Assembly (NCBI GenBank): GCA_026182355.1
Contig: JAPFBL010000164.1
Location: 558,001 to 622,000, forward strand
Length of the DNA stretch: 64,000 bases
Reading direction: 5' to 3'
Source: Hermatobates lingyangjiaoensis
Lineage: Eukaryota > Arthropoda > Insecta > Hemiptera > Hermatobatidae
Of this stretch, positions 358 to 63,430 are shown piece after piece; within the stretch, counting starts at the first letter, position 1, and each line of letters begins with the position of its first letter. Both the position numbers and the translations under genes were made by a program. The notes beneath the pieces were generated by a model. The model was given only the letters and a program-made list of their open reading frames with translations, was not told the DNA's origin and ran no database searches.

Positions 358-545
358 GTGCAATTACGCTCCCCGAGCAACTGGGTCGGTTACTTGCCGT
401 TGCGTCTACAACGTACTTGGTCTCCATTTCTCTGTTCTCCTCAAGAAGAATTGCCCAAAAATTTTAGTTTGTACCTGTGTTTCTTTATTTTGAGTCTTAC
501 TCTTCTTGAATTTTGAACTCGTATTGCGTCCATTTTGGATCATAG
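358..545 (+). mobile_element. Family D2 PLE-like relic, decayed hammerhead module
   Basis: Shares the stretch around TTGCCGTTGCGTCTACAACG and the end near CTTCTTGAATTTTGAACTC with the better copy at 42490..42630. The ribozyme module (about 439..462) is decayed: CTCAAGA replaces CTGAAGA and the GAAA core reads AAAA. It ends close to a TA-rich tract, as other copies do. Confidence 0.55.
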
Positions 546-664
546 TTCCGAAATTATAATTATATAATATTATTATATATTATATATATATATATATAAA
601 GATTTCACATAAACACGTGAAACAACAATCAATGATCAAACCACAATAAGAAATGGGAAAACAA

Positions 665-707
665 GACTAAGATCTTTCAACCGTAACAAGCGGTCTTCGT
701 CAGAGTC
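665..707 (-). ncRNA. Hammerhead-like ribozyme candidate, family A, left arm
   Basis: Mirror image of the module at 734..776, identical in sequence. Read on the minus strand: GACT, CTGACGA, one extra A, a GACCG/CGGTT hairpin, GAA, the palindrome AGATCT, T, then AGTC. Confidence 0.6.
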
Positions 708-733
708 AAAAACCCAACTGCAGTTGGGTTTTT

Positions 734-776
734 GACTCTGACGAAGACCGCTTGTTACGGTTGAAAGATCTTAGTC
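734..776 (+). ncRNA. Hammerhead-like ribozyme candidate, family A
   Basis: Order of parts: GACT (stem I, 734-737), CTGACGA core (738-744), one extra A, stem II GACCG/CGGTT with a 7-nt loop, GAA (763-765), self-complementary AGATCT (766-771, stem III of a dimer), T as the cleavage-site base, and AGTC (773-776), which pairs with GACT. The inserted base before stem II departs from the classical hammerhead but is constant across all families here. Activity is inferred, not shown. Confidence 0.65.
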
Positions 777-830
777 TTGTTTTCCCATTTCTTATTGTGG
801 TTTGATCATATATATATATATATAAAGAAA

Positions 831-1112
831 GAGCAAGAGTGTTGTCTTAATTTGGCAATGATAATTTTTTAAAGCTTTATAAAATATTCAAAGCTGACTT
901 CATGGCTTTTTGAAACTGAAAGTGACATTTTGAAGTATATGATTTCTTATTGTCTTTTTTGTACTCCAATATACAAAATAAAATTATGGAACTTTTTCGC
1001 ACAAAAAAGAATAAAATTCTGAATTACATGTCATAGAGAACATAGGAAAATAATAACTAATGAAGATCGATATTTTAGTCATGAGGATAAGGAGAGAAAG
1101 AGGAGGGAGGGA
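831..1112. other. Unannotated AT-rich DNA
   Basis: No supported gene or repeat boundary seen. Confidence 0.4.

Positions 1113-1164
<52 letters not shown>
1113..1164. repeat. (GA)n microsatellite
   Basis: Nearly pure GA dinucleotide tract inside a purine-rich stretch (about 1090..1180). The serine/leucine-rich reading frame on the other strand is just the translated repeat. Confidence 0.95.
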
Positions 1165-1170
<6 letters not shown>

Positions 1171-1850
1171 GAGAGAGTGAGAGAATATCCCCAAGACTGG
1201 CTTAGCATATCCGTTTCAATGATTTGTTATAATTTTTAAGAAAAAAATATTTGTTTTGTTCTGTATCCTATTATTTTTATTATTTTTTTTTAAATAAAAA
1301 TATTTTAATTGGACGTAGAATACATAATATTGTAAAAAGTAAGAAATCTATTCATAAGGCAAAGAAAGAATCTTAGTAATGCCAAAAATTTGTATCTGTA
1401 GACTGAAATAATTATATACCATTCGAAACTAACGTCTCAAGTATTATCTTAATAAATTCATCTACTCATTTGTAATGTATACAAATATCTATGTATTTTT
1501 AATGACGGATATCAATCTGCGGAGATTCACCACTCTGATGCTAAATCTCATTCGGAAGGTGGATAAAAAACTTCTGAACACTAAACATCTGCTATTAATC
1601 AAGTCCGGCTACTTCATTAATTAAACTAATATTAATTGGTACGATTAATTCAGTCCTTGTTTAATTTTCAAACATATCATTCTTTTCTTTCAAAAGTAAT
1701 CCTTATTAATTAATGTTTATTCTGTTATTATATATTTAATTTTTCTTATACACAAGTATATCTTTATACTTATAAACCTCTGTTGATCATGACTGTTTGT
1801 TTGTTTGCACTTGCTTTAAACTGAATGAATAATAAAACAATTAAGATTTT
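1165..1850. other. Unannotated AT-rich DNA
   Basis: No supported gene, RNA or repeat boundary seen. Confidence 0.4.
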
Positions 1851-3394: not shown

Positions 3395-5900
3395 CTAACA
3401 TCATAACATTTAACTTAGATACTCTACTATATATAAATTACAAATCAGTTAAATTAGTGGTTTAAAGAAATAAAATCTCCTCGAATTAATTATTATTATT
3501 TTGATTGTTGCTGTTATTATTATTGTTATTATTTTTGCTCACCTGGGACTGCCAAGCTTAAATCTCTAAACAAGAGATGAGGATGTAATAGCCATGATTT
3601 ATCGGCTTCAGCTTGAATCTAAAGAAGTTACCGAGGAAACAATTATGTTAAAAATAACTTTGAATCAAACTAAAGAGCACTTCTACATCTTACTGTTATT
3701 TATAAAATATTTAAATGAAGCATATTTTATGTTAAGTCACAAAAATATTTCTCTTTGAAAGTCAGGAAAAAGAATTTATATGTTATTTAAATTAATTGAA
3801 GTGTAACAATGTTGAAAAAGACTATGTTTATATTGGAGGGGATATATATCTCTCAAGGAGGTTTAAGAGGCTTTGATAGTCACCTTACTTGGGATAGAAT
3901 GGAAGAAGTCGGCAGTAGAGTTTTTATTAGACACAAACGCCGTTTGATGATGGGTGAACGAAAAGGAAGTCATTTTATCTGATGCTTCAACGTCAAGACT
4001 CTTATTTATAGATGGATGTAAAACACAGTAAACTGGGATATTTGAAATGATTCAAGTTCATTGAGCTGGTATTTCGTTTCATATTTTTTTATCGAAATCA
4101 ATGCAAGATGCTGAGTGAGTTTTAATGCCCTCGCTATCTTCTTCAAGGCATGTCATATCCTTTACGAATAATTCTTAAATTAAAGATCCATTAAAGGATC
4201 TTTACTTGCAAAGACATTAAAGATCCATTACATGCAAATCTATTGCCCTACATTAATATGAAGGTAATTAAAAACATAAGTAAACACAAATTCGGAGTTT
4301 TAATACAGTAGTCTTCATATACTATTATATTGCCTCATTGAATTAGAAGGTAAGATCACTCCCGTCGACTATATAAGCCTGAGTGTAAATCCCTTAATCC
4401 TTGATAAGGGCACCTCTCTTTAACTCTGAAGGTCCAGTAATTCCCTTCGTCCAACGATGCGTTAGGACCTTAATTAGGGCACCTGACTTGATAAAGAAAC
4501 TAGTGACTTATAAAAACCCAAATATTTAAAATAAAAAAGATTTATATATTTTTAATATTTTCTTTAAAAGTTCACACATACGAAGGTACCTGCCCTTTTT
4601 TTAAGGTTCAGGGAAAAGTCTACAGGTTTAATGACTTTCTACTCTATCCCTCAGCTGCTATTGCACTCCTTGTAGTCATAGCCTACATGACTTCTTTCAG
4701 TTACAACAGGTTCCTTTCCGTTAAATTCAGTGTTAACGCTATATTTTGTAAATATAATAATCCGCGAATAATATTCAGTTGTATATCTACTCGCAGTATT
4801 CTCATAATTATCTGCATATTAGTTGCTATACACTGCTTAAATTGTATAATATGTATTCACTCATATATAAAATAGCAAAGTTCTATTCTCTCTACATTTA
4901 TAAACTCTGACACTAACATCACCGCTAACTATAAGGCTTGAAACTATATTCACTCTCCTTTGTGGGGCATTTAAAGTTACTTCCATCAGCTATCGAGCTT
5001 TCAGCAACATCTGTAGAACTTTAGGGCTATACTATCTCCATACCTACTCGGTTCTGGCTTGATTATTTCTATATCAGTAGAATATGGTTATATACACCCG
5101 TATATAATGGGACAAAACGTATATGGTCTCACTCCTTTATGTTCTTGAGGATGATTTTTTCTCTATATTCATAGAGGGAATATACAGGATAAAATATCAT
5201 GTATAATAACATATACAGGAATATACAGGTTCCTGTATATGTGTATCTGTTATGATGCAGCTAGATAAAAGCATGAACCGGTAAATAGTGTTTTCTCTAA
5301 AACAAGCCTTGAACATGCCAAACAACTTTTGCCGAAACTTCGGCTTATAATCAGGAGTTGTATCTTTATGACCATTCAAGAACCCCTTCTGTGAATTAGA
5401 AATATTTATTATATTCAGAACATTTAACATACATAACAGAAATGCAATCAAGTTTGAAAAGTACCAACGAAAGTTCTTGCAGTGTGATATATTGGCATGT
5501 CCCAGATGAAGGGTAGGTCAGAGTTTTATCGCCACATTTAAAAGAGATACGAAGAAAAAAAAACAAAGGCTCTCGAAGCAGAAGTGGGCTCATTCAACCG
5601 CCTGCTTTGTGTAAGCGACTTTGTCTTATAGGGACATTGCCAACTTGCCTATTGTCCTGCTATCTTTTGTCGCTTGGATTAGTGTAATGGTGAAACCATT
5701 TTCCCCTGACTCTCTCAACCAACTTTAACTAATCAGTAAATAAGCCTAATTGTCTCAAGTAATCGTCCATTATATAAGCATCTTTCAATATCAGTCTAAA
5801 CATGTCACCCAATGGCATGGTGACTCTGCAAGTATCATGCAGAGGTATCAAAATTCGTTTCTTTCCATAAAAAAGTTGATAACAAATAAATGTTTACTGA
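3395..5900. other. No gene or named repeat recognised
   Basis: AT-rich, with scattered short frames and no family resemblance. A local duplication of AAAGATCCATTA-type sequence sits near 4190..4240. GC rises slightly near 5480..5700 without an interpretable frame. Confidence 0.35.
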
Positions 5901-5904
5901 CTGT

Positions 5905-6320
5905 CGAGTAAAAAGGTAATGAAATGGTCTCCACACATAAAAATTTAATAATATAAACAACGCATTTCGAACACGTAGTGTTCTTCCTCAGCCATTAGCT
6001 AAAAAATACAATGACACCAAAGAGTTATCCATAGTATAAAGTAAATATAGTACAAAATAAAAATAAAATAAAATAAGGAAGAGAATACGAAATTATTTTA
6101 ATTTATTTTTATTTTTTACCTTATTTTATTTTATTTTTATTTTGTACTATAGATAACTCTCTGGTGTCATTGTATTTTTTAGTTAATGCCTGAGGAAGAA
6201 CACTACGTGTTCGAAACGCGTTGTTTATACCATTAAATTTTTATATGTGGAGACCATTTCATCAGCTTTTTACCCTACAATGAGTAAATATCGCATAATA
6301 ACTGATTGCACTACGTTAGA
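5905..6320. mobile_element. Family E inverted pair, second locus
   Basis: Arms share GGTAATGAAATGGTCTCCAC and its complement with the 2.2-kb locus, and the right outer end reaches the same terminus (..TGCACTACGTTAG, about 6319). The interior differs: here it is an AT-rich inverted sequence around TTGTACTATA. Modules lie at 5965..5991 (minus) and 6190..6216 (plus). Confidence 0.75.
6188..6224 (+). ncRNA. Hammerhead-like ribozyme candidate, family E
   Basis: CTGAGGA, extra A, a perfect 6-bp hairpin GAACAC-TAC-GTGTTC, GAA, palindrome ACGCGT, T. The hairpin is better paired than at 2386..2412, where one pair is lost. Confidence 0.5.
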
Positions 6321-7904: not shown

Positions 7905-8500
7905 CATTATGCCATCAATAAAAACGAATAAATAGCTGTCATTCTCAAATCATATTGGATATCCTAATTCATGTCATGTGCTGCCCTTGCTCTAGTTTTC
8001 CTCGAGAACTTTTATTTCAGGTAATTAGAATGCAAGCCTTGTTCTTGGAACACAGTTCCGAACCAGAACGAGCATCCATTCGTCATATTTAAACGACCGA
8101 TAGAACGACCACCTACTAGACTAGTTCATTCACTGCGTGCGAACCACTCCTGGATTTGATATTGGAATACAGATTATCCACCTGAGCCTACTGATCAGGT
8201 ATATTATTCTGTTTTGCCTTTTCTATCAATCAGAATTTAAAACTCTTGAATCCCCCTAAAGTTTAGTTATCTTTTATTATTACCACTCGTCTATTACTAA
8301 TAATAATAATAAAAATGAACGAATTCTTAATTAATTATTAATTAATTATCTTAATTAATAACTACCTTTACATGTGTCTGTGTGCATGTGCATGAGTTTT
8401 ATACATGTGAATATATATAAATCAAATGGTGCTGTCTATTGGATTTAGATAAAAATTATAATGGAAGTAACACAAAGATAGACACAGCTATAACTTATAT
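7905..8500. other. No gene recognised
   Basis: Mixed AT-rich sequence with a TTAATTAA-rich tract at about 8325..8365; nothing else supported. Confidence 0.4.
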
Positions 8501-8504
8501 CTAT

Positions 8505-8700
8505 TTCTATTTTTGACAATCTTCGTCATCAGGAGGTGATGTGTCCCAGAGGGAGACAGGGCGATTTTTGTAAGTCACCTCCCTGCCTTCCTGCGGGACT
8601 CTTCGCTCTTCACACATCCTGATGACGACGATGGTCGAAATATCGATGTAAGTTATGTCTGTGTCTTTCTGTGTGTTTCCTTCGTTTTGAATTTATTTTA
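8505..8700. mobile_element. Family B PLE-like inverted pair
   Basis: A decayed minus-strand module (about 8511..8532, GAAA lost) faces an intact plus-strand module at 8614..8649, with GGAGGTGATGTGTCCC-type sequence between. The plus arm continues through GTGTCTTTCTGTGTGTTTCC to a (TA)n tract at 8700. The same arm occurs at 24095..24300 and, diverged, at 11155, 29760 and 53035. Confidence 0.8.
8614..8649 (+). ncRNA. Hammerhead-like ribozyme candidate, family B (strong)
   Basis: ACATC (8614-8618, stem I), CTGATGA core, extra C, stem II GAC-GATG-GTC, GAA, palindrome ATAT, C as cleavage-site base, then GATGT (8645-8649), which pairs fully with ACATC. All conserved parts sit in the expected order. 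Stem III would need two copies to pair through ATAT. Confidence 0.7.
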
Positions 8701-8715
8701 TATATATATATATAT

Positions 8716-8990
8716 ATTTCACGATGAATCACAAACACAGAACTAAGGAACAAACACACTTACTGTCTCTAATTTTCGGTTGAAATGTCATCAGGAGAGT
8801 TGAGATAGGGACACCAAGCGCACTTGTGAAGCGACGGTTGGAGACACTCCAACTTGAGAAACTCCAACCATCGCTTTACAAGTGCGCTTGGTGTCCCTAT
8901 CTCAACTCTCCTGATGACGGTTCAACCAAAAATTAGAGACAGTAAGTGTGTTTGTTCCTTAGTTCTGTGTTTATGATTCATCGTGAAACA
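8716..8990. mobile_element. Family D PLE-like inverted pair
   Basis: Outer arms run from TTTCACGATGAATCA to its complement ending at 8988, and inner arms include CAAGCGCACTTGTGAAGCGA. A minus-strand module (8774..8794) and a plus-strand module (8911..8931) are both damaged: one has a mutated stem II, the other has GAAA changed to AAAA. Confidence 0.8.
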
Positions 8991-9132
8991 TTTGTTGTCC
9001 TTTTGGATCGTTTTCCTGTTTACAATATATATATATATATATATATATATCATGATTTGTTTTCTTGACCCAATATTTATATGATGTAATTTTCTTGAGG
9101 TTTGAGGTCCAATGATAAAAACTAGTCCATTT

Positions 9133-9170
9133 GCCGACGTTTCGACATATATTTATGTCATCTTCAGGGC
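9133..9170 (-). ncRNA. Hammerhead-like ribozyme candidate, family F, left arm
   Basis: Complement of the module at 9580..9617: GCC, CTGAAGA, extra T, GACATA/TATGTC hairpin, GAA, ACGT, C, GGC. Confidence 0.65.
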
Positions 9171-9344
9171 TACAACATGATTGTTTTACAATTAGCACTA
9201 CTATTACAACTATTTGGTAATTTATTACATTTTAATATGTTCAGTAACAAAGAGGAATTTTTTGATAAAACAGTTATTACGACTCTGGATTATTTTGTTA
9301 TACATTAACATAAGGATATTGTTATAATTCTAATATATAATATA

Positions 9345-9402
9345 TAATATATATAATATATAATATATATAATATATAATATATATAATATATAATATAA
9401 TA
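9345..9402. repeat. TAATATA satellite at the palindrome centre
   Basis: Tandem TAATATATAATATA units form the spacer between the two family F arms. Confidence 0.85.
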
Positions 9403-9579
9403 ATTCTAAAGCAATAGAATAATTATAACAATATCCTTATGTTAATGTATAACAAAATAATCCAGAGTCGTAATAACTGTTTTATCAAAAAATTCCTCTT
9501 TGTTACCGAACATATTAAAATGTAATAAATTACCAAATAGTAGTAATAGTAGTGCTAATTGTAAAACAATCATGTTGTA

Positions 9580-9617
9580 GCCCTGAAGATGACATAAATA
9601 TATGTCGAAACGTCGGC
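9580..9617 (+). ncRNA. Hammerhead-like ribozyme candidate, family F (strong)
   Basis: GCC (9580-9582), CTGAAGA, extra T, a 6-bp stem II GACATA/TATGTC, GAA (9607-9609), palindrome ACGT, C (9614), then GGC (9615-9617), which pairs with GCC. The UC dinucleotide at the predicted cleavage site is of the classical type. Confidence 0.68.
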
Positions 9618-9659
9618 AAATGGACTAGTTTTTATCATTGGACCTCAAACCTCAAGAAA

Positions 9660-9679
9660 AATTACATCATATATATATA

Positions 9680-9722
<43 letters not shown>
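9660..9722. repeat. (TA)n microsatellite between families F and G
   Basis: About 60 bp of TA dinucleotides joining two PLE-like insertions; typical of the setting of these elements here. Confidence 0.95.
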
Positions 9723-9727: not shown

Positions 9728-9995
9728 TGTGTTCTCTAATCGGGGTTCGGTCAATTTTCCGAATTATACTGTCTAGTCGAAGGTTTTGTCCGGTTAACAT
9801 TGTTGTTCCTTTAAATAATGTAAATTTCATTTTCTTAGTTAAAAAATTCTTACTTCTGCCTATGAAAAAGGTTTTAAATAAAACCGAAACGTTCGCAACA
9901 AGAGTTTAATTTTTATCCTGGAAAATTGACCGAACCCCGATTAGAGAACACACCTATTCTATCAAACGGTCGATATATTATTGAATCTGTTATAT
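9723..9995. mobile_element. Family G PLE-like inverted pair
   Basis: Starts with GTGTTCTCTAATCGGGGTTC and ends with its complement near 9951, followed by CGGTCGATATATTATTGAAT and (TA)n. The same outer ends recur at 26800..26995 and 51765..52225. The plus arm carries the family G module at 9857..9897. The left arm is truncated and lacks it. Confidence 0.8.
9857..9897 (+). ncRNA. Hammerhead-like module with unusual core, family G
   Basis: TGCC, then TATGAAAAA where other families have CTGANGAN, then a stem GGTTTT-AAAT-AAAACC, GAA, palindrome ACGT, T. Downstream pairing to TGCC is partly lost here (CGCA) but is intact at 51824..51864. Either a decayed lineage or a new variant of the core. Confidence 0.4.
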
Positions 9996-11154: not shown

Positions 11155-11233
11155 TACTTCTGCTCGATGACGACAAATGTCGAAATATCGTTGTGAGTCT
11201 TTTTTTGCGTGTTTTTATCTGTTTTTCTGTGTG

Positions 11234-11270: not shown

Positions 11271-11356
11271 CAAACCACAATATGAAATGGTAAAACAAGA
11301 CTAAGATCTTTCAACCATAATAAGCGGTCTTCGTCAGAGTCAAAAATCCAACTTAA
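11266..11356 (-). mobile_element. Family A solo arm
   Basis: Minus-strand family A copy next to (TA)n. The full module lies at 11299..11341 with AGTC/GACT and AGATCT intact; the hairpin loop differs by one base pair from the main form. Confidence 0.75.
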
Positions 11357-15800: not shown

Positions 15801-16049
15801 TTCTTTCAACCAAAACAACTAGTCTTCAAACTCACTCTTCAACTGTTCAAACATTTTTACAAAATGTTTGTAAAATATCACTACACTCCAGTACCCTATG
15901 TGAGTTATAGTATTCTTGATTTTATTCTTTCAACCAAAACAACTAGTCTTCAAACTCACTCTTCAACTGTTCAAACATTTTTACAAAATGTTTGTAAAAT
16001 ATCACTACACTCCAGTACCCTATGTGAGTTATAGTATTCTTGATTTTAT
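15801..16049 (+). repeat. Perfect-looking 124-bp tandem duplication
   Basis: TTCTTTCAACCAAAACAACT begins at 15801 and again at 15925; the two 124-bp units appear identical over nearly their whole length. The near-identity implies a recent duplication or a gene-conversion event. Confidence 0.9.
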
Positions 16050-16054
16050 TGTTT

Positions 16055-16845
16055 CACAGATTTGCTAGGAAATCGTGTTATATAATTGATTATAAACTGA
16101 GTTGTACAATTTTTTTAAATTTAAATAATAGTTAATAATGTGTTGACTGACTATATACAAACCCATTACAAGCCTAGTCAATACTTCAATAATTTCTGAC
16201 AGAAGATGCAGGCAAAGTCTAACCTCTCTATTTCAAAACACATTGTTATCACAGAAAGAATAAGCATTCTATGTAACCAAACAAAAATTGAGCATAATTA
16301 TGTTAAGTATAGAACTGCCAGTCACTTTGTCACCGACCATTAGTGGTAAAATAAGAAAGAAATTAAAATATATGTTATTATTTTATGTTGAAGAAAATAT
16401 GAAATATGAAAAAATATGACAAAAAAGATTAAAAAGACAAATATAAAGAAAATGAAGAAAATTGATCTAAAAATAAAAAGAAACATTAAAATTAAGTTGA
16501 GTTCGCTAGCCATTCAGACACTATAAGGAGGGTTATAAGTGACTATATTTACATACATTTCTAGTAAGTTATTACTGGAGACAGGTATTTCTTCCTGTAT
16601 GCATTTATTTGTCCAGTAATTCCATTTTTTTCTTTTAGTTTTGTTAATTTTGTATAATTATTATTATTTTGCCAATTCTTTATTGAAAGAGTGTTGGAAT
16701 TTTGTTGTTTGCATTAACGTGATTTTTTTTGTTTTCTGTGCGCTCAGCTTTAGGTCAATGTCAATTACATATTCATGAATGAATAATTAATGAATAAACC
16801 ATTATTGAAGGCTTTGCAAATATTATACTTTCAAGATAGTGTCTG
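16055..16845. other. No gene recognised
   Basis: AT-rich; nothing supported. Confidence 0.4.
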
Positions 16846-20354: not shown

Positions 20355-21590
20355 GATATTTTATATCTTAAGTATAAAAACAGAAATGGTAGTCATGTTT
20401 CTTTGTAGTGAGACTTTCGACCCTTAACAGTAGATTTAGGTTACTAGTTTGCTAAGGGTCTGGTAAAGAGTTGATTGCTCTTCAAGTGGGTCCTGCTTCC
20501 ATTGAAACATATATATTTCTAATTCGAATGCTATAACTCAGGTCTCAAAATCATCGCAGTCATTCAACTCTTTGATTAGTAAAATCTGTTCATTTAATTG
20601 TAGTTAAGCTTGTCATTCAACTATTGAATCAGTAGCATCAGCCTATGTATTATAAATGTACTTATAAAAATAGAAGTATTAATATAAGCTGTATTAGTTT
20701 TTTTAAGAACATTGTGCAAGAAAAAAAACCATGCCAAAAGGAATCCATTGGGAAAATTGTATGAATACAAAACTGTGATAAGAGATTAAGAGAACTGAGA
20801 GAGTGTACAAAGGAGTAATCGGGAGGATTGGCTCGAACCACTGAGGAACTAATCACATCAAAAGGAAGCCACCTTGGTCTGTACAGTCCTTGTAATCCTC
20901 TTAGCCATTCCAAAAGGTAATCCCAAGCAACAAATGACGGTTCTCTACCCTTCAATTAATGTCTTTTCAACAAGTCACTTTTAATATTTGCAATCTTTTT
21001 TTTTTCATGCACACCCTAATATTGTAGTTCTCTTGCGCACACTTATATGAATTTTATATACAATCAGGATATCTCTCTGGTATAACAGACGGTCAAAAAT
21101 TATTATAATTTGAAATATGTTGCTTTAATATGAAAGTAGCATACGTCTTTTATCATTTCTGTATCTTTAGGTGCTCAATTTCAAGGAAATCCTAATTGTT
21201 TTCAGATTAAACTATCAAACAATCAATATAACTACTATTAAAAGATCAAATGGATAAATGAATTTATTATTACACCCTTGAATTTATAAAATGTTATATT
21301 AATTAAATAATTACTTCTAATTAACCCTCATATTTAGTTATTTCATTTATTGGATTAAAGTGAAAATTGAACTGAAATATAATATAATAAGGTTAACAAA
21401 AATTAATATATATCTAGTGCATACAAATACTTTAAAATAAAAAAAAATATTTCAAAAGTGCTACTGGGCAATTATAGATATATTTATGTATTATTTCTTA
21501 AACAGAATTACACTGATGTTAGATATGTTTCTCAGAAGTGAGACCTTGATACCTAACAGTAGGTTAAAACGCTATAATTTAATAAATAAA
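20355..21590. other. No named feature
   Basis: AT-rich. A somewhat GC-richer piece at 20790..20960 opens a 97-codon minus-strand frame with no resemblance to a family I know. Confidence 0.35.
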
Positions 21591-21608
21591 TATATATATA
21601 TCTATATA

Positions 21609-22316
21609 CACCGCCCTACTAAGTGATCGTAGGAATACTACCCCCTTCATATCTACCTTTTTCTCTGGCTCCCACAAACTCGGCACTGTTATTAGGAAGT
21701 TCTTTCCTATACTTTCCTCTTCTTCGTCTACTTCTCCCATTTTCAGTCAGCCCCCTACTTTTTCCCACTGTAGACCTTCCAACCTTAAATCCATTTTCTC
21801 CCATATTTCCAACAGCCCCTACGCTAGAGGGATGCAGCGATGTGAACGCCGTAACTGCCAAACCTGTCCCCTAATTAACTCCAGTCCTTACTTTACTTGC
21901 CCTCTTAGTAACAACTCCTATCCTGTTCCTTCTGATACACATTACACTTCCTGCAACTGCATTTACGGTTTCGATTGTACTCGATGTGATGCTTTTTACG
22001 TTGGCTTGGCTTCAACCAAGCTGAGCCTACGTATGAACAATCACAGGGCGTTGGTCCGTCCGTTGGTCAGCTCAGTGACTTACCCATAGCCATTCATGCT
22101 AATTCCCGTGACCTCCGTTTTAATTATTGCTTCAGGGTACAAATCCTCAAACAAATCCCCGAGTCTAACTCCCATGTCACCCTTAGAGCTTCTGAAGAGG
22201 TATTTATATGCCTCCTTGGGGCTCGCTCTCCTCCTGGTCTTAACCTCTACTGTTACTTAATTTTTTGTATTATTATTTTTTAAAATAATATTTTTTTCTT
22301 TACCCTATTTTATATG
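21609..22316 (+). mobile_element. 5'-truncated Penelope-like element, GIY-YIG endonuclease end
   Basis: The frame is open from 21610 and reads TVIRKFFPIL, then the cysteine cluster CERRNCQTCP, then SCNCIYGFDC-TRCDAFYVGL, the GIY-YIG core, and LSLRMNNH. It breaks at 22089. One frame over, from about 22072, it resumes as LPIAIHANSRDLRFNYCF and LRASEEVFICLLGARSPPGL to a stop near 22283, the usual PLE C-terminus. The order linker, CCH cluster, GIY-YIG matches PLE ORFs; the reverse transcriptase is missing because of 5' truncation. A 14-bp direct repeat, TATATATCTATATA, lies at 21595-21608 and 22317-22330 and is the likely target duplication in a TA microsatellite. Inactive. Confidence 0.88.
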
Positions 22317-22319: not shown

Positions 22320-22640
22320 ATATCTATATATTATTATTATTATTTTATTAATTCTCATTGTTTTTATTTTTCATTTCTTTATTTTTATTTTCATACTTCA
22401 TTATTATTTCATAACATCTTTTTTATCTGGTTTTATAAATAAATATTAGAAGGATCTCTCTTTTTCCTCTCTTCCGCTGTTAGGCAGCACTGCAGTGTTT
22501 CTACGAGTTTCTCTGGAGGCCAGTTGCACATTGCAACCTAACAATGCTAAATGGCTCGTAGTTCCCTACAATCCATGCTTAAAAGTCATATCATCCCTCA
22601 TGAAAAAAGTAAAATATCTTAGTTCTATTTAATATTGGCG
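22320..22640. other. T-rich stretch between two PLE remnants
   Basis: TTATTATTATT-rich DNA, then a GC-richer piece near 22470..22560 with GTTAGGCAGCACTGCAGTG. Possibly PLE-derived, but not shown. Confidence 0.3.
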
Positions 22641-23060
22641 ACGTCAAACAGGCTGGTTTAAAACTCTAACAGTAGCCAAAAATGACTGTTCTGTATACAG
22701 AATACCATGCAGGGATTGTGGAACAGCTTACATTGAACAGACAGGCAAAACTCTTTTCACTAGGATAAAGCAGCATCAGTCCTCTGTTAGAAGAGAGGAT
22801 ATAAAAGTTCTTTGTTTATACAGATTCAAAACAAAAATTATATAATCAACTGGGAAGAAGCAAAGGAATTGGTATTTATATTTTTTGAAAGAAGAATAAA
22901 CATCATTGAAAGCCCCCCCCGTAAAGAACTGTTATAAGAGTTTAGTCAACAATAGCCTAGATGTTTTTAAATTGTATGAAAATTTAATTAAAGGAATCGC
23001 CAACCAGATCAAGACTAGTATTAGTTTAATGGGTTTAAACACAGTTATTGCTGCCAATTT
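22641..23060 (+). mobile_element. Penelope-like GIY-YIG endonuclease remnant, second lineage
   Basis: Reads VAKNDCSVYRIPCRDC, then GTAYIEQTGKTLFTRIKQHQ, a clear GIY-YIG module (AYIEQTG for the usual YIGQTG) without the long cysteine linker of the neighbour, so a different PLE lineage. After a short deletion and a stop the frame resumes as INWEEAKELVF and ERRINIIES, corresponding to the IDWENA and KRLFLES segments of PLE endonucleases. Several stops and a poly-C run follow. The reverse transcriptase is absent. Confidence 0.8.
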
Positions 23061-24094: not shown

Positions 24095-24300
24095 ACCACC
24101 AGGCGGTGACACCGCTCTGCCTTCCTGCGGTACTCTTCGCTCATCACACCTCCTAATGACGACGATGGTCGAAATATCGATGTGAGTTATGTCTGTGTCT
24201 TTCTGTGTGTTTCCTTCGCCTCCTGATCACGACGATCGTCGAAATATAGAAGTGAGTTATTTCTGTGTCTATCTGTATGCTACCTTTGTTTTAATTCGTA
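24095..24300 (+). mobile_element. Family B with two modules in tandem
   Basis: Starts next to (TA)n. The first module (24153..24174) has CTAATGA, GAC-GATG-GTC, GAAATATC, GATGTGAG. After GTGTCTTTCTGTGTGTTTCC a second module (24233..24254) has CTGATCA, GAC-GATC-GTC, GAAATATA. They are 80 bp apart on one strand. Each has one core change. Confidence 0.75.
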
Positions 24301-26322: not shown

Positions 26323-26460
26323 ATTTCACATAAACAGATTTCACATAAACACGTGAAACAATAATCAATGATCAAACCACAATAATAAATGGGAAAACAA
26401 GACTAAGATCTTTCAACCGTAACAAGCGGTCTTCGTCAGAGTCAAAAACCCAACCGGATA
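26320..26460 (-). mobile_element. Family A solo arm between two (TA)n tracts
   Basis: AGATTTCACATAAAC occurs twice in tandem at the outer end, then the standard arm. Complete module at 26401..26443 (minus): GACT, CTGACGA, extra A, GACCG/CGGTT, GAA, AGATCT, T, AGTC. Confidence 0.85.
26401..26443 (-). ncRNA. Hammerhead-like ribozyme candidate, family A
   Basis: All parts of the family A module intact and identical to 734..776. Confidence 0.62.
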
Positions 26461-26529: not shown

Positions 26530-26800
26530 GGCAGGACAGATTACACTTAAAATAAACAGTGACACATAGAAAGAATCATAACAAAGACTCACTTTTCAAT
26601 ATTTCGACCGTAATGGCGATTGAATGCATGTTGAATTGATGGAGGGACGACAGTCAACTCAGTTGACAGTTGACTGTCGTCCCTCCGTCAATTCACTACT
26701 TCTCCTGAGGAAGATCGTCATTACAGTCGAAATATTGTAAAGTGAGTCTTTGTTATGTTTCTTTTTATGTGTCACAGTTTATTTTAAGTATATATATATA
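26530..26800. mobile_element. Family C PLE-like inverted pair
   Basis: Outer arms share ACTTAAAATAAACAGTGACA and its complement, inner arms GGAGGGACGACAGTCAACT. Only the right arm has a complete module; the left arm lacks the CTGAGGA part. (TA)n follows on the right. Confidence 0.8.
26699..26742 (+). ncRNA. Hammerhead-like ribozyme candidate, family C
   Basis: CTTCTC, CTGAGGA, extra A, GAT/GTC hairpin with a long loop, GAA, palindrome ATAT, T, GTAAAG. Stem I is imperfect in this arm, but the other arm has GAAAAG, which matches CTTCTC at five of six positions. Confidence 0.5.
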
Positions 26801-27000
26801 GGTGTGTTCTCTAATCGGGGTTCGGTCAATTTTCCTGGATAAAAAATCACACTCTCGTTGCCAACATTTAGGTTTTAAATAAAACCGAAACGTTAGTAAC
26901 GAGAGTTTGATTTTTTACCCTGGAAAATTGACCGAACCCCGATTAGAAAACACACCTATTCTATCTAACGGTCGATATATTATTGAATCTATTATATATA
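26801..27000. mobile_element. Family G inverted pair, shortened
   Basis: GTGTTCTCTAATCGGGGTTC on the left and its complement on the right, with GGTTTTAAATAAAACCGAAA in the centre. The TATGA part of the module is missing. Followed by GGTCGATATATTATTGAATC and (TA)n, as at 9970 and 52205. Confidence 0.8.
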
Positions 27001-27199: not shown

Positions 27200-27712
27200 T
27201 TATATATATATATATAAAACAGTTGTGTGATAGATTATACTAAAATTAATCTAGTGTCGATCAGTTTTCTAGATTCAAATCGAACACTCATATCAAACAA
27301 GTGCTAATAATCTTGCTTATTTAATAAATTTACCAATATATATGCAAGAATACTTACCTAATGAATCAGCAAATCGGATGGGCCGGATTAGACCCGTCTC
27401 ATTTTCCATTATCCTTTAGTCTTCATGACATCTGGGGAAATAAACGCTCATTTAATTATCAGCTATATATATAAGTTTACATTGTATATAGCATATAAAG
27501 TTTATTGTATGTTTGAAGGTAATATTTTTGTCTTTTAAAATCCAGAGATATAGATTGGATAGATTTATACAGAATACACATAAAAATATTTAGAAATTAA
27601 AGAGTCAAAAATGATTATATATGTATAATATAACGAAAAAAAAACAATTGAAACGAGCAACTAAAGTTCAATATAAACCAGATACATAGATATAATACTT
27701 ATAGCCTATAAT
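27200..27712. other. No gene recognised
   Basis: AT-rich; nothing supported. Confidence 0.4.
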
Positions 27713-27714
27713 AT

Positions 27715-31806: not shown

Positions 31807-31819
31807 ATTAATACGGTGG

Positions 31820-35035: not shown

Positions 35036-35074
35036 TGTAGTAAAAGTTTATACCGTCTGTATTGTTCTGTTCTT

Positions 35075-37484: not shown

Positions 37485-37840
37485 ATTGAATTTACGGCCT
37501 ATTGTTTTTTTAATTAATTTTTCGGATAACTTTTCCAAAGCCCTTAAGAGTATTTTAAATTCACGAGGAACCAGGTACATCAACTCACCATAGGGTTTGT
37601 TTTCAATGATTATATTTCTTTCGACGTTTCGGTCGTCTTCGACCATCTTCCGAAAGGTCGGAAGAAATATAATCATTGAAAACAACGCATAAGCTGTGAG
37701 TTGATGTACCTAGTTCCCCATGAATTTAAAAGACTCTTAAGGGCTTTGGTAAAGTTATCCGAAAAAATAATTAAAAAAACAATAGGCCGTAAATTCAATC
37801 TCACATGTATTAAGGAGGGACTGTTTCCTAAATATATATA
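37483..37840. mobile_element. Family H PLE inverted pair with ORF start in both arms
   Basis: Each arm carries the start of a PLE reading frame. Minus strand, left arm: ELMYLVPREFKILLRALEKL, SEKLIKKTIGRKFNLT, ending at (GT)n. Plus strand, right arm (about 37695..37830): MYLVPHEFKRLLRALVKLSE, KIIKKTIGRKFNLTCIKEG, LFPKY, ending at (TA)n. The FNxxCxxEGLxP pattern places it in the N-terminal region of PLE ORFs. A hammerhead-like module lies upstream in the same sense as the left-arm frame. The right-arm module is lost at the turn. Confidence 0.78.
37618..37656 (-). ncRNA. Hammerhead-like module, family H, altered core
   Basis: CTTTC, GGAAGA, extra T, a GGTC/GACC hairpin, GAA, ACGT, C, then GAAAG, which pairs with CTTTC over five bases. 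The CT of the CTGANGA core is replaced or missing if the five-base stem I is used. Confidence 0.42.
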
Positions 37841-41582: not shown

Positions 41583-41735
41583 ATAAAAATTTTACATAAA
41601 GAAATGAAATAACAATCAATGATCAAACCACAGTATGAAATGGGAAAACAAGACTAAGATCTTTCAACCTTAACAAGCGGTCCTCGTCAGAGTCAAAAAC
41701 CCAACTTGTTACGGTTGAAAGATCACAGATATATA
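41583..41735 (-). mobile_element. Family A arm with short inverted end
   Basis: Minus-strand copy with a full module at 41652..41694 (loop one base different), joined at its inner end to a short inverted piece CTTGTTACGGTTGAAAGATC. Confidence 0.8.
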
Positions 41736-41741
41736 TATATA

Positions 41742-41960
41742 AAAAGATTTCACATAAACACGTGAAATAACAATCAATGATCAAACCACAATAAGAAATC
41801 GTGGTTCTTATACCACTCTTCCCTCCCACTCTTCTCAACTCCTCACCAGATGTTTTCTGCATCTAGTGTTCAGTTGGGTTTTTGACTCTGACGAAAACCG
41901 CTTGTTACGGTTGAAAGATCTTAGTCTTGTTTTCCCATTTCTTATTGTGGTTTGATCATA
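41742..41960. mobile_element. Family A inverted pair with foreign spacer
   Basis: The left arm stops after GATCAAACCACAATAAGAAA. About 75 bp of unrelated pyrimidine-rich sequence (CTCTTCCCTCCCACTCTTCT) follows. The right arm is complete with a module at 41884..41926, where the hairpin reads AACCG instead of GACCG. Bounded by (TA)n on both sides. Confidence 0.8.
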
Positions 41961-42039: not shown

Positions 42040-42150
42040 AGAGCATATGATTTCACTTCCAGACGAAGAACTTCAGTTCGAAATATTGATCCAGTAAGTT
42101 TTCTCGTTTCTTGTATGTGTTCTATTTTTCATTTATATATATAAGATGTT
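42040..42150 (+). mobile_element. PLE-like solo module related to families B/C
   Basis: CAGACGA (T to A in the core), extra A, GAA-CTTCAG-TTC hairpin, GAA, ATAT, T, GATCC, then TTCTCGTTTCTTGTATGTGT and a (TA)n end. Module at 42060..42092. Confidence 0.55.
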
Positions 42151-42244: not shown

Positions 42245-42480
42245 TATATGTAAAGATTTTACATAAACATGTGAAATAACAATAAATGATCAAACCACAA
42301 TATGAAATGAGAAAACAAGTCTAAGATCTTTCAATCGTAACAAGCAGTCTTCGTCAAAGTCAAAAACCGAACTAAAAAACCCAACTGTTGGGTTTTTGAC
42401 TCTGACGAAGACCGCTTGTTACGGTTGAAAGATCTTAGTCTTGTTTTCCCATAAGATATTGTGGTTTGATCATTGATATA
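42245..42480. mobile_element. Family A inverted pair
   Basis: The left arm (minus module 42329..42357) has TTGACGA for CTGACGA. The right arm module at 42398..42440 is intact. The arms meet at CCCAACTGTTGGG. (TA)n on both sides. Confidence 0.85.
42398..42440 (+). ncRNA. Hammerhead-like ribozyme candidate, family A
   Basis: Identical in all module parts to 734..776. Confidence 0.62.
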
Positions 42481-42489: not shown

Positions 42490-42626
42490 ATTACTTGGTT
42501 ACTTGCCGTTGCGTCTACAACGTGCTTGATCTCTCTTTCTCTTTCCTCCTGAAGACGGATTACCCGAAAATTTGAGTCTGTAAGTGTGTTTCCTTAATCT
42601 GTGTGTTACTCTTCTTGAATTTTGAA

Positions 42627-51589: not shown

Positions 51590-51765
51590 TATATATATAT
51601 ATATATATATATATGATCAAACCACATTGGGTTTTTGACTCTGACGAAGACCGCTTGTTACGGTTTAAAGATCTTAGTCTTGTTTTCCCATTTTCTTATT
51701 GTGGTTTGATCATTGATTGTTATTTCACGTGATTATGTGAAATCTTTATATATATATATATATAT
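51590..51765 (+). mobile_element. Family A arm between two (TA)n tracts
   Basis: A short inverted start GATCAAACCACA joins directly to TTGGGTTTTTGACT. Module at 51637..51679 with GAAA changed to TAAA. The outer hairpin TTTCACGTGATTATGTGAAA is intact at 51723..51742. Confidence 0.8.
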
Positions 51766-51823
51766 AGGTGTATAATGTAATCGAGATTCGGTCAATTTTC
51801 CAGGATCAAAGTCAAACTCTCAA

Positions 51824-51864
51824 TGCCGACGTTTCGGTTTTATTTAAAACCTTTTTCATAGGCA
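51824..51864 (-). ncRNA. Hammerhead-like module with unusual core, family G
   Basis: TGCC, TATGAAAAA, stem GGTTTT/AAAACC with an AAAT loop, GAA, palindrome ACGT, C, GGCA. Stem I pairs fully (TGCC/GGCA). Only the core differs from the other families. Confidence 0.45.
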
Positions 51865-52090
51865 GAAGTCAGAATTTTTGAATTAGAAAAATGATGAAAT
51901 TTACATTATATAAAATGAAGTAACAATAGATAGTTAGTGAACTAACATCTTAACAGGTCATAAACTTGGTAAGTCAAAGTCTGGTCCAAGTTTTTGACCA
52001 GTTAAGATGTTAGTTCACTAACTATCTATTGTTACTTCATTTTATATAATGTAAATTTCATCATTTTTCTAATTCAAAAATTCTAACTTC

Positions 52091-52131
52091 TGTCTATGAA
52101 AAAGGTTTTAAATAAAACCGAAACGTCGGCA
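52091..52131 (+). ncRNA. Hammerhead-like module with unusual core, family G
   Basis: As 51824..51864, with TGTC for TGCC, which still pairs with GGCA through a G-U pair. Confidence 0.42.
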
Positions 52132-52223
52132 TTGAGAGTTTGACTTTGATCCTGGAAAATTGACCGAATCCCGATTACATTATACACCTATTCTATCCAA
52201 CGGTTGATATATTATTGAATTTG

Positions 52224-52285: not shown

Positions 52286-52982
52286 TTACAGCTAGAGAAC
52301 ACAAGAAAAAGGACTAACACTCACGAATCTCGATAATTTCGGCGTCTTGCCGACTTCAGGAGAGAAGAAGAAAATAAAAAGGAGAAGGAATGAAGGAACG
52401 GAGACGTAAATTCGTCCACTGGCCGATACAAACAACGAAACAATGACACGCAGTGCAGCCACCTTACCAACGTGGACCAGTTTAGGCTTTAGTAAATAAA
52501 ATTATAAAAGTGATATTTAAGTAAAAGGGAGGAGAAAAGTAAAAAAGAGAAAGGAAAGGAGAAAACATAAAACTAAAATTAAACAAATAAACGAGGCTGA
52601 AAAAAAAACCAGGAAATCATCTGATTAAATTTAGACCAGGGGAATTTCTTGCACCCAAATAACCAAATGAAGGCTTCCTCAGAAGCCCTTAGAGTGGTCT
52701 GGGTGTCATGAATTGAGAGTTGTCTTAATACATGAGCCCTGAAGCAATCGTTGAAGGGAAGGTTATGGAGATTGTCATGGGTGGCAACAGGGAACTGCTT
52801 GCGTTGATCAACGGATTACCTGTGACCATTCATACGGAGGCTAAGTGACGTGGAAGTCAGGCCCACGTAGAATGAGTCACATTGTCTGCAGTCCAGACGA
52901 TAAACACAATTGCTGGATGTGCAGGAACTAGCAAAGGAGAGAGGGTATGAATGGTTGTTAGCTGTTGAGATGAAATATCTAT
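52285..52982 (-). mobile_element. 5'-truncated Penelope-like element with GIY-YIG domain and 3' ribozyme module
   Basis: The minus strand enters from (TA)n at 52982 into an open frame: CTSSNCVYRLDCRQCD, SFYVGLTSTSLSLRMNGHR (the GIY-YIG core), a TAA stop at 52818-52816, then in the same frame QFPVATHDNLHNLPFNDCF, RAHVLRQL and LRASEEAFIWLF to a stop at 52579. It aligns part by part with the PLE end at 21609..22316 but is a separate lineage. A pyrimidine-rich 3' region of about 200 bp then leads to a hammerhead-like module at 52328..52363 on the same strand and to the 3' end at (TA)n. The cysteine cluster and reverse transcriptase are absent by truncation. Nearly intact frame, so relatively young. 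Confidence 0.9.
52328..52363 (-). ncRNA. Hammerhead-like ribozyme candidate in the PLE 3' region
   Basis: TCTC, CTGAAGT (last core A is T), extra C, a GGC/GCC hairpin, GAA, ATTAT (A to T self-complementary apart from a central T-T), C, GAGA, which pairs fully with TCTC. On the coding strand and about 215 bp past the endonuclease stop. Confidence 0.58.
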
Positions 52983-53005
52983 ATATATATATATATATAT
53001 ATATC
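52982..53005. repeat. (TA)n microsatellite
   Basis: TA tract at the 5' side of the PLE. Confidence 0.95.
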
Positions 53006-53024
53006 GCGTAGAAGTTTGCTTCTC

Positions 53025-53133
53025 AACGTGAGTACTTCGCACTTCTTCCCTATGACGACGGATGTCGAAATATCGAAGTGAGTTCTGTACTGTCTTTCTG
53101 TGTTCTTTCCTATGTGTTAAAGTTTATATATAT

Positions 53134-56604: not shown

Positions 56605-56740
56605 ATATATATAAAGATTTCACATAAACACGTGAAATAACAATCAATGATCAAACCACAATAAGAAAATGGGAAAACAAGACTAAGATCTTTCAACCGT
56701 ATCAAACGGTCTTCGTCAGAGTCAAAAACCCAACAGTTGG
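56605..56740 (-). mobile_element. Family A arm joined to a PLE ORF start
   Basis: After (TA)n, a minus-strand family A arm with a module at 56681..56723 (two bases of the hairpin loop region changed). It runs straight into the plus-strand ORF piece at 56745 through AACCCAACAGTTGGATTATT, the position where other copies turn into their inverted partner. Confidence 0.85.
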
Positions 56741-60500: not shown

Positions 60501-60793
60501 GGGCCAGGTTAGCTCAGTGGTTAAAGTGCTCGCCTCTGGGTTGATTGTGGGGTTCCATCCCCACCTGGCTCTCGATTTATTCACGCGGAAGGTGAATACA
60601 TCTGAGTGCGTCATCCCTCGGAGAAGATTTTAAGCCGTCGGTCCCGAGCCTGTACGATATCAGGTACTCGTTAAAGACCCCCTACTCGAAATGCACTTGA
60701 GTTAGGCAAAATGTAGGACTCCCAATGTAGAATCTGTAGAATCACCAATGAAACAAAAAGCCGGTAAACCACTGACGTTATTATCCACTAGGG
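60501..60793 (+). mobile_element. tRNA-derived SINE, type B tail (best head)
   Basis: The head GGCCAGGTTAGCTCAGTGG (A-box region), GTGCTCGCCTCTGG and GGGGTTCCATCCCCACC (B-box region) is the most tRNA-like in the window. The body is standard. After AATGTAGAATC it ends in TAGAATCACCAATGAAACAA and GTTATTATCCACTAGGGG, the type B end. An internal RNA polymerase III promoter is expected from the two boxes. Confidence 0.9.
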
Positions 60794-60799
60794 GATTGA

Positions 60800-62935
60800 T
60801 TAAAAATAAAAAAAATTAGGCAAGCCTGATAAATACATTGTACAGTGTAAATCACTTGTTGCTCACTGTGGTCACTGTTCAGAGTGGCCGACAGGGAGAA
60901 TCTGTTGCATATCTCTTTTAAAGAACTCCTTGCAGATAACCATGACTGGTCCATGAACAGTATCAGGTTACAGCCATGCACCTTAAACCATTCTGTGTAC
61001 ATTCTTGGTTCATCCAATATGTGTTCCCACTTGCAGCGTCTGTTGTACCATCAGCCGGTGAATACTCCACCTTCTTGTTAGAGCACTGAAGTTATTGGAG
61101 GACAGGACTACTCACTCCTTGCAATTTTAGGATTACCCTAGAATATATTAGGATTTAGTCGTTCCCCCTTATGGAAAATGCCCATTATCCCGGGACCAGG
61201 CCTCTCCTAAGTGAGTACCAGTTTTCAACTCCAACTGCCTAAGTATGGACAATGATAAAGGTTGAGGGTCAAGTTCCCTCTTGTTGCTTTACGATCTACC
61301 TCCCGAGAACATACTCTTTCTCAATCATCGACTACCTAGAAGTCTACCCTTCCTGGGTGAAGAACCAAAGATACAATGAGTCCAACACGAAGGAAGAGGC
61401 ATGCAGGACAACATAACAAGTCCCACCTAGGCTACCCCCGCCCCCATGATACCGACACGAGCTCTCGGCAAGTTATTAACACTGAGGACAGTTATTGGGT
61501 GGAGGGAAATTCTTGGCATTAACACCCTCGCCTATGCAACTCGCCGTATAGATGGATACCTAACCGATAATAAGCCATACTCTAAGTCCCTAGTACAATT
61601 CAAAAGGTGTTAAATATGTATGCCATAAAATTATAGGAAAAATAATTAAATACTTACGATATATTACCTAGAAAATCTATTCTCCTGATAATTTTAGGTA
61701 AAAAATTCTGAGTGGCCTACACTAATTTTTACTATAAGTAAACATAATATTAAACTTGTTGGCAATCAATTGAGTACTGGTTCTATTTTATTGTGACTAA
61801 CGTACGACGTAATATCAAACTCTTCAATTATCAGCAATGGCTTCATTTGTTTTAATGTGGCTATAGTAATTTCATCGGTTATTACAAATAACCGATCCAG
61901 AACAATCTGATATGTCATCATTATTATTATTATTGAACTGAGGTCCTGAATCTCATCGGCTTGTGCTACTGTGGTCATACACAATTCGATATCTATATCT
62001 GTATTTATAAAATAAGCTCAAAATATTTTTTTGTGTAAGTATTTTTGAAATTGATTGTGTTAATTTACTTTTGCGGTGGGTATAGTTTCCCTTATGGAAA
62101 TGATTATTTAGCTGAAATTTATCAGTTTTGTTAAAATAGAACTTTTATCATTTCTAATGTAATAGAACTTTTCCAATATTGTAAGCTCATGAAAAATTAT
62201 AGTTTTTAACTTAATAGAAAAGTTTAAGATCATCGACTCATTGGAGAAGTGGTTTACATGTGATAGTCTTGTTGTCATAAAAAACTGAAAAAGCACCTCC
62301 CCCATGCTCAGTTATTACCCAAAATTAATAAAACTCTCAAACAGACAAAGGCTAACAACTAGATTTAATGACTGACAACTAGAGAGATTAATTGCAACAT
62401 TCTCTCTAAACAAACACCCTTCACTCTGGAGAATGCCATAAACTATATGGTTGTTTGGTTTATGCTTATATAGTTCTGAGCATTTTATTGTTCTTACTTA
62501 TCATAATCAAATCATTAAAAATCCTTTCTTTAAATTTCTTTTATTACACCATAAAAGAGGAATTCTGTTGTTTTTATTTTGAAAAAAAATGTTTAATTAA
62601 TTGTAAACAAATCCGTCAATTGCAACAGGTACTGTTGTAATTAATGAGTTTTCAGTTTGTATTTCCTTTCAAATATGTTTCCTTTTGGAGTAATCAGAAT
62701 TTTTTGAAACTTTTTTCGAGCATGCTAATTTTATTTTATTTCCTTATAAAATTGTCTACACCTACAATTAGCCGCTATGCGTTAACAAAAAAAATCTTGT
62801 TAAATAGTAAAATTTACCAGAACTACCATTTCCTATTTACATAATTTAAAAAAAAGAGTACTAAGTTCATATATTTCTACATATTTAAATTCCTTTTTAT
62901 TTATTTACACATGAAATAATATCATTTTTCTAATT
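60800..62935. other. No gene recognised; GC-richer block at 61000..61600
   Basis: 61000..61600 is GC-richer (CCACCTAGGCTACCCCCGCC) with no frame longer than about 70 codons. A (TTA)n tract lies at 61918. The rest is AT-rich. Confidence 0.35.
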
Positions 62936-63016
62936 TCTTATATTGGTTTAGGCATTGGTATGTATATATATATATATATGAAGTTTAAAGGACAATTCTT
63001 CAAAAATACGAATATA

Positions 63017-63017
<1 letters not shown>

Positions 63018-63066
<49 letters not shown>
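63018..63066. repeat. (TA)n microsatellite
   Basis: About 48 bp of TA, with further TA-rich tracts at 62959 and 63140..63190. Confidence 0.95.
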
Positions 63067-63067
<1 letters not shown>

Positions 63068-63191
63068 CCTTAAATTACACAAAGCACGACACAGAAAAGA
63101 GAATAAAAAGAACACTTACAGAATTTAATATTTCGAATATATATTATATATATATATTACTTGTATTATTATATTACATGTATATATATAT

Positions 63192-63430
63192 ACACTTTTT
63201 CGATGAAAATACGATCCGAAATGGACAAATACAGTTCAATGTACATAAAGAAACATAGAGAAATTAAAAACACAAACTTACAGTCTCTAATTTTCGGTTG
63301 AACCGTCTTCAGGAGAAATAAAGAAGGGAAACCAAGCGCACTGGAAGACGGTTCAACCGAAAATTAGAGACTGTAAGTTTGTGTTTTTAATTTCTCTATG
63401 TTTCTTTATTTACATTGAACTATATATATA
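63192..63430. mobile_element. Family D inverted pair
   Basis: The left arm runs from (TA)n through TCGATGAAAATACGATCCGA to the minus-strand module at 63284..63316 and CCAAGCGCACTGGAAGACGG. The right arm repeats the distal half (GACGGTTCAACCGAAAATTA) and ends at (TA)n near 63421. The right arm has lost its CTGAAGA start (CTGGAAGA). Confidence 0.85.
63284..63316 (-). ncRNA. Hammerhead-like ribozyme candidate, family D (best copy)
   Basis: TCTC, CTGAAGA, extra C, hairpin GGT-TCA-ACC, GAA, palindrome AATT, A, GAGA. Stem I TCTC/GAGA, stem II GGT/ACC and all core bases are intact. Confidence 0.65.

Follow-up and report, generated by a model that had tools for sequence, protein, structure and literature searches.

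The window analysed here is the 64-kb stretch C164:558001-622000 of the genome of Hermatobates lingyangjiaoensis (910 Mb in 1629 contigs), with a G+C content of 31.7% calculated from base counts. It holds many copies of a short module that resembles a hammerhead ribozyme and that probably belongs to Penelope-like elements (PLEs). We searched for the module with a strict descriptor, which demands stem I of at least 3 bp, CTGANGA, 0-2 extra nucleotides, stem II of at least 3 bp, GAA, a perfect palindrome ending in T, and H17. This search returned 12 matches in the window (eight in family A, two in F and one each in B and D) against 0.017 expected, a chance level taken from 60 first-order Markov simulations of the window that yielded one match in total. 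A relaxed descriptor returned 21 matches, compared to means over 12 simulations of 1.17 with any spacing and 0.17 with one extra nucleotide. A covariance model (CM) trained on ten modules with 4-nt palindromes gave 25 matches in the window at E<0.1, including its ten training sequences and a doubtful one at 5303+ (E=0.054) that we did not accept as a module; families A and E, which have 6-nt palindromes, were mostly missed by this model. The hand-curated inventory of the window reached 50 modules or relics (14 of family A, 10 each of B and D, five each of E and G', two each of F and C, and one each of H and J), more than the approximately 35 counted in an initial annotation of the stretch. Many of these copies are decayed, with broken stems or cores. 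The CTGANGA matches at 22192+ and 52682- are not modules, as they lie in the coding sequence of endonuclease relics. The modules and palindromes of the window are as follows, with strands given by sign.

632-809: family A palindrome, two outward-facing modules with cores at 703- and 738+, AGATCT (strict descriptor; 178-bp inverted repeat, 100%).
2200-2486: family E palindrome, modules 2298- and 2386+, ACGCGT, stem I of 2 bp (relaxed descriptor; inverted repeat).
5890-6291: family E palindrome, modules 5991- and 6190+ (relaxed descriptor; inverted repeat).
8469-8677: family B pair, 8532- decayed and 8619+ intact, with ATAT and then GTAAGT (strict descriptor for 8619+; 66% inverted repeat; CM).
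8714-8991: family D palindrome, modules 8794- and 8911+, AATT and then GTAAGT (CM; 91% inverted repeat).
9025-9715: family F palindrome, modules 9167- and 9583+, ACGT (strict descriptor; 91% inverted repeat).
9856-9899 (+): module of family G', the G of the initial annotation, with altered core (inventory).
11158-11195 (+): family B relic (CM E=0.00043).
11298-11342 (-): family A module (strict descriptor; inventory).
24147-24254 (+): direct pair of family B modules at a distance of 70 bp, with GTGAGT after each (CM E=3e-08 and 2.8e-07; the two belong to the training set).
26400-26444 (-): family A module (strict descriptor; inventory).
26542-26792: family C palindrome, decayed modules 26600-26634 (-) and 26699-26742 (+), then GTGAGT (82% inverted repeat; CM E=0.012 for the + copy).
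27703-27991: family D pair, 27734- (relic) and 27960+ (relaxed descriptor; CM; 70% over 79 bp).
37617-37658 (-): family H module, core CGGAAGA, ACGT (relaxed descriptor; CM training set).
41619-41959: family A head-to-head pair, modules 41690- and 41888+ (strict descriptor; arms 94% identical).
42054-42093 (+): family J module, core CAGACGA, ATAT and then GTAAGT (relaxed descriptor; CM training set).
42282-42477: family A palindrome, 42357- (relic) and 42402+ (strict descriptor; inverted repeat).
42543-42579 (+): family D module, then GTAAGT (relaxed descriptor; CM training set).
51602-51680 (+): family A module, core 51641+, GAA changed to TAA (relaxed descriptor).
51764-52191: family G' palindrome, with altered cores near 51860- and 52095+ (95% inverted repeat).
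52326-52365 (-): D-like module, core CTGAAGT, then GTGAGT, with an endonuclease motif in the same orientation 462 bp upstream (CM E=0.0015).
53043-53080 (+): family B relic, head-to-head with an endonuclease relic (CM E=1.4e-06).
56680-56724 (-): family A module whose stem II has a sixth pair (strict descriptor; inventory).
63229-63425: family D palindrome, 63312- intact and 63338-63372 (+) with truncated core, then GTAAGT (strict descriptor for 63312-; CM; inverted repeat).

Both descriptors together place the core CUGANGA and GAA in families A, B, D, E and F, and families H (CGGAAGA) and J (CAGACGA) depart from that core by one mismatch each. The hairpins listed in the initial annotation stand for A, B, D, E, F and H, but both window copies of family C are decayed; outside the window, in the same genome, the hairpin of this family is GACCG/CGGTC. 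Family J was absent from that list, and its module 42060+ has the hairpin GAACT/AGTTC. In family E, stem I is just 2 bp. The position of stem III is taken by a short palindrome that is specific to the family (ACGT, AATT, ATAT, AGATCT or ACGCGT), and with a single palindrome in that place, pairing is possible only between two modules. We collected 74 sites that combine CTGANGA with a stem II of at least 4 bp from 223 kb of the window and fetched genome stretches, partly overlapping, from which repeated sites were removed; at least one of them (30970-, within an open reading frame (ORF) of a long interspersed nuclear element (LINE)) is probably a chance match. The palindrome follows GAA in 66 of the 74, and 64 of these 66 have A, C or U at H17, a count that is partly biased because 30 loci (L202-L231) had been retrieved through ACGT.

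One extra nucleotide separates CTGANGA from stem II in all 12 strict and all 21 relaxed matches of the window. Among the 74 sites, a count that the way of retrieving loci does not bias, the spacing is exactly one nucleotide in every case and never 0, 2 or 3; in the genomic sample retrieved by the ACGT pattern it is one in 80 of 81 sites and three in the other. Stem II thus does not start directly after A9, where a type I hammerhead would have it. With AATT/ATAT, 17 of 19 sites have C as the extra nucleotide; with AGATCT, 18 of 19 have A, and with ACGT, 23 of 24 have T. De la Pena and Flores (2001) reported a single extra core nucleotide in a viroid ribozyme. For comparison, IMG/VR was searched for a GGC/GCC stem II pattern with one extra nucleotide or none, giving 82 stretches (87 sites) with it and at least 120 stretches (123 sites) without it. 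Complete type I folds were found in 29 of the 87 and 81 of the 123 sites, against 2 of 87 and 0 of 123 when the downstream sequence was shuffled, and therefore the insertion, which is U in 75 of the 87 sites, occurs in sequences that otherwise fold as hammerheads. Insertions of 1 or 2 nt at the junction of A9 and stem II are implied to be known in a 2023 paper (PMC10085705). PLE hammerhead candidates from other eukaryotes (one viral-contig and 37 genome-contig stretches) offered no site with a stem II of at least 4 bp among 38, and a literature search neither affirmed nor denied an extra nucleotide in PLE hammerheads, two founding papers being outside its reach. What is unusual here is that the extra nucleotide occurs without exception among 74 sites.

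We then asked of the alignment how far the stems are kept while their sequence changes. In 13 modules, 97.4% of stem II cells are paired and the covariation score is 0.915, compared to 0.415 for shuffled alignments (0 of 500 reach it). For stems I and II of the ten modules with 4-nt palindromes, 18 cells show double changes against 5.9 in shuffles (0 of 500). Because these shuffle controls leave the kinship between modules in, strands were also swapped among one module per family; with seven families, 24 of 5040 permutations reached the observed pairing of stem II, and 4 of 5040 that of stem I. At the first 100 genomic places matching the ACGT pattern, 81 have a stem II of at least 4 bp, comprising 22 distinct hairpins, and the 29 distinct arm pairs of those 100 have 3.07 of 4 positions paired, compared to 1.99 when shuffled (maximum 2.69 in 10,000). 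Covariation in stems I and II, for which the initial annotation had proposed a statistical test, was thus detected, and its view that different sequence with the same fold marks a selected RNA gains from both the stem comparisons and the diversity of genomic hairpins. These alignments support one RNA fold as having been kept across several families.

The families are not all unrelated, as judged from motifs next to the module. A match to GTRAGT, the 5' splice donor consensus, lies within 16 nt after the palindrome in 21 of 24 AATT/ATAT modules (families B, C, D and J), and it follows none of 51 modules of A, E and the ACGT type. Examples can be seen at 24153-24260, 42566-42590 and 63282-63372. 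Introns near the 5' end are carried by Penelope elements. Because they share the AATT or ATAT palindrome and GTRAGT, we read B, C, D and J as one group with common features, and the families as split in two. The initial description of eight unrelated-looking families around one module is borne out in that one fold recurs in several families and the descriptor matches far exceed chance, but it did not list J, took B, C and D as separate, and included a family that lacks CTGANGA.

That last family, G' (hairpin GGTTTT/AAAACC), has CTGANGA in 0 of 11 copies and TATGAAAA before the hairpin in 9 of 11, and it retains stem I, stem II, GAA, the palindrome and H17. A 32-base pattern of G' with the altered core occurs 8,399 times in the genome, compared to 0 for the reversed pattern; this pattern fixes the altered core and says nothing on the absence of copies with CTGANGA. 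At L280:4070-4520 (G000:C4), three near-identical G' modules without the core stand in direct orientation within 209-bp tandem units. G' is more simply read as having a structural role.

The module is abundant well beyond the window. The pattern CTGANGAN{8,19}GAAACGT has 18,373 genome copies against 196 for its reverse, and the family D pattern CTGANGAN{8,19}GAAAATTAGA has 18,402 against 7. With G', these patterns sum to 45,174 copies in 910 Mb, or 3.2 per 64 kb, compared to eight exact matches in the window (two ACGT, three D and three G'). With so many copies from just three patterns, the window does not stand out in its host, and the presence of many lineages in 64 kb, which the initial annotation had called unusual, is close to the normal state of this genome. 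A coral is described as having over 6000 type I hammerheads, which fall into 16 sequence families and are mostly minimal (PMC7229834).

Of 14 pairs of same-family neighbours within 1 kb in the window, 13 are head-to-head and one is direct, and among the 100 listed genomic places, neighbours within 1.5 kb are head-to-head in 16 of 18, with one direct and one tail-to-tail. Of 13 head-to-head pairs checked, ten are palindromes with one centre (178-704 aligned bases, 66-100%) and two have separated arms (94% and 70%); for the A pair 15557/15578 the arm search returned an unrelated 41-bp repeat. By arithmetic, the palindrome stops 37-69 nt past the predicted cleavage site in one copy from each of the families A, C, D and E, and it ends at (TA)n in several copies. 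PLEs that bear an endonuclease are described as having inverted pseudo-long terminal repeats (pseudo-LTRs) and palindromic junctions, mostly head-to-head (PMC3846280). Three Rfam microRNA matches, at 26796-26959, 5979-6202 and 2303-2381, all fall below gathering scores and were not accepted as microRNAs; the latter two were rejected also because they lie inside inverted-repeat palindromes. The stretch 26796-26959, where several microRNA families match below gathering scores, is a long hairpin or inverted repeat around a G'-like copy and adjoins the family C palindrome.

Three relics of GIY-YIG-like endonucleases accompany the modules of the window.

21586-22280 (+): relic in two frames (weak Pfam match, E=0.19 with the frames joined; none in single frames).
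22633-22842 (+): relic of a second GIY-YIG-like type (PF01541 E=0.11, below cut-off; motif).
52582-53022 (-): relic in two frames (PF01541 E=0.0015 with the frames joined, below cut-off; 0.049 in one frame).

The joined-frame match to PF01541 is best in the last of these, and within 52326-53080 an endonuclease relic is flanked by B and D-like modules. A search for homologues of the relic at 21586-22086 found nothing. Outside the window, locus L232 encodes on its minus strand a reverse transcriptase (RT; RVT_1 E=4.3e-05) and then a GIY-YIG endonuclease (PF01541 E=1.9e-04), both below the Pfam cut-offs, and a G' module lies downstream of both, 573 bp after the endonuclease motif; a second G' module at this locus follows an endonuclease-like fragment. 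A homologue search with the RT piece of L232 returned 12 unnamed proteins. The endonuclease of L233 is above the Pfam cut-off (E=6e-05), and in L240 a third G' module is preceded by an ORF that shares the endonuclease motif of L232. Endonucleases of four sequence types, as judged by eye, lie near modules. The PLE origin proposed in the initial annotation is therefore clean for G', with RT and GIY-YIG endonuclease beside it, but circumstantial for A-F, H and J, whose probable membership is suggested by the shared module, the layout and proximity. The largest ORF of the window, 30864-31838 (-), is not from a PLE and encodes a jockey-like LINE RT (RVT_1 E=1e-16). The ORF at 34663-35100 (-) is LINE-like by eye, with no Pfam match, and at 15801-16056 a 124-bp unit is duplicated in tandem with 99% identity.

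We think it likely that the modules are minimal type I hammerheads, or decayed copies of them, in the pseudo-LTRs of PLEs comprising several lineages and their non-autonomous derivatives, and that they probably act as dimers. A module would run from stem I through CUGANGA, one extra nucleotide, stem II, GAA and a palindrome of 4 or 6 nt (A15.1 to U16.1) to H17 and the second strand of stem I. A single palindrome is not expected to form a stable stem III, and therefore two modules would be needed, pairing through their palindromes and so restoring stem III. The partners could lie in tandem pseudo-LTRs of one transcript or in two transcripts. In the resulting double hammerhead each module would cleave the other's site after H17, releasing unit-length RNA from tandem PLE transcripts. 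Hammerheads acting as dimers are established (PMC6155905, PMC7761336, PMC6466107), and the mechanism proposed here is inferred by analogy with them. We expect most head-to-head copies in the window to be inactive, because the antisense arm of such a copy would pair with its sense module.

Several results weigh against this interpretation. A search of the window with Rfam 15 returned no hammerhead family at E≤10. Two of five covariation measures failed to exceed shuffles: further pair types showed no excess (241 of 500 and 392 of 500 shuffles reach the observed value), and neither did pairs changed on both sides in the 13-module test (124 of 500). Direct pairs, which a dimer within one transcript requires, are rare (1 of 14 and 1 of 18). 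An energy model found the imposed double hammerhead less stable than the best dimer in all six families scored, with J left out. Among 13 pairs searched for a target-site duplication, 11 share no flank word of 7 or more and two are unconvincing, the flanks being AT repeats. The only family cleanly tied to a PLE ORF is G', in which the core is altered. Finally, RNA of PAc, a lizard PLE, is reported to be inserted in vitro with a dead ribozyme, and its ribozyme to be inactive without protein (PMC11167929).

The alternative that best survives is that the fold is kept for a non-catalytic task of PLE RNA, such as binding of RT and endonuclease or marking the start of reverse transcription, cleavage being incidental or lost. 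The insertion of dead-ribozyme lizard RNA in vitro (PMC11167929) speaks for such a task, as does G', in which stems, GAA, palindrome and H17 persist around an altered core that 8,399 genome copies share exactly. Structure alone would not demand, however, that CTGANGA be kept in A, B, D, E and F despite their differing stems, and we consider this explanation unlikely for the modules as a whole. It is far less probable still that the carriers are palindromic foldback elements or DNA transposons resembling miniature inverted-repeat transposable elements, inserted in TA-rich targets, that picked up the module. Long palindromes, (TA)n flanks and short copies without an ORF would fit such carriers, but there is no constant target duplication, RT and GIY-YIG endonuclease lie beside G', and the layout matches the PLE anatomy described in PMC3846280. 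That the modules have no RNA function, being sequence inherited from ancient repeats or chance, agrees with the decay of many copies but is contradicted by the covariation tests, by compensatory differences between families and by strong enrichment over chance, and we give it hardly any credence.

Returning to hammerheads in PLE pseudo-LTRs, a more specific proposal can be made, and we offer it tentatively, as possible but doubtful: the modules may form a distinct PLE hammerhead subtype, marked by a fixed inserted nucleotide between A9 and stem II that tracks the palindrome in place of stem III (mostly U beside ACGT, A beside AGATCT, and C beside AATT or ATAT), with one branch in which cleavage and splicing compete and another that has outlived its core. 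If so, modules of the first branch would end a few nucleotides before a 5' splice donor, and ribozyme cleavage and splicing would compete for the same RNA. In the second, loss of the catalytic core would not have kept the fold from spreading, to 8,399 copies of a single 32-base pattern, which would mean that PLE RNA uses the hammerhead fold for a purpose besides cleavage. A review describes the role of PLE hammerheads as unknown (PMC7761336). The genome offers a natural experiment in this respect, with many lineages of compensatory stems, a splice-donor branch and an amplified branch of altered core, and if the branches were compared for activity and for the ends of their transcripts, catalytic and structural roles would be told apart. 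The genome also presents an abundant hammerhead-like form that is unmatched by Rfam models in the window.

PLE hammerheads, their minimal stem III and their dimer action are already known; potentially new are the fixed extra nucleotide, the splice donor next to the module and the family with the altered core. The modules resemble PLE hammerheads, as far as these are described in PMC7761336, PMC7229834, PMC6155905 and PMC6466107, in their type I order, very short or absent stem III, pseudo-LTR site, expected dimer action and many families per genome. Compared with those descriptions, they differ in the single extra nucleotide at 74 of 74 sites, the branch followed by GTRAGT and the branch without a core. 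PAc of Anolis carolinensis (PMC11167929) similarly has a hammerhead at the junction of pseudo-LTR and ORF, RT and GIY-YIG endonuclease, and AT-rich targets; its ribozyme was assayed in vitro, where it was inactive without protein and dispensable for insertion, whereas our reading of the present modules comes from sequence. The IMG/VR hammerheads share the single extra nucleotide in the same place before stem II (87 sites), but in that collection stretches with the standard spacing occur as well (at least 120), and stem III is a proper hairpin. Metazoan non-LTR retrozymes also carry type I hammerheads and are thought to be mobilised by PLEs (PMC7761336, PMC7229834). Their canonical hammerheads sit in direct tandem repeats of about 150-400 bp, whereas the modules described here are arranged head-to-head, except in the 209-bp array of core-less G'.

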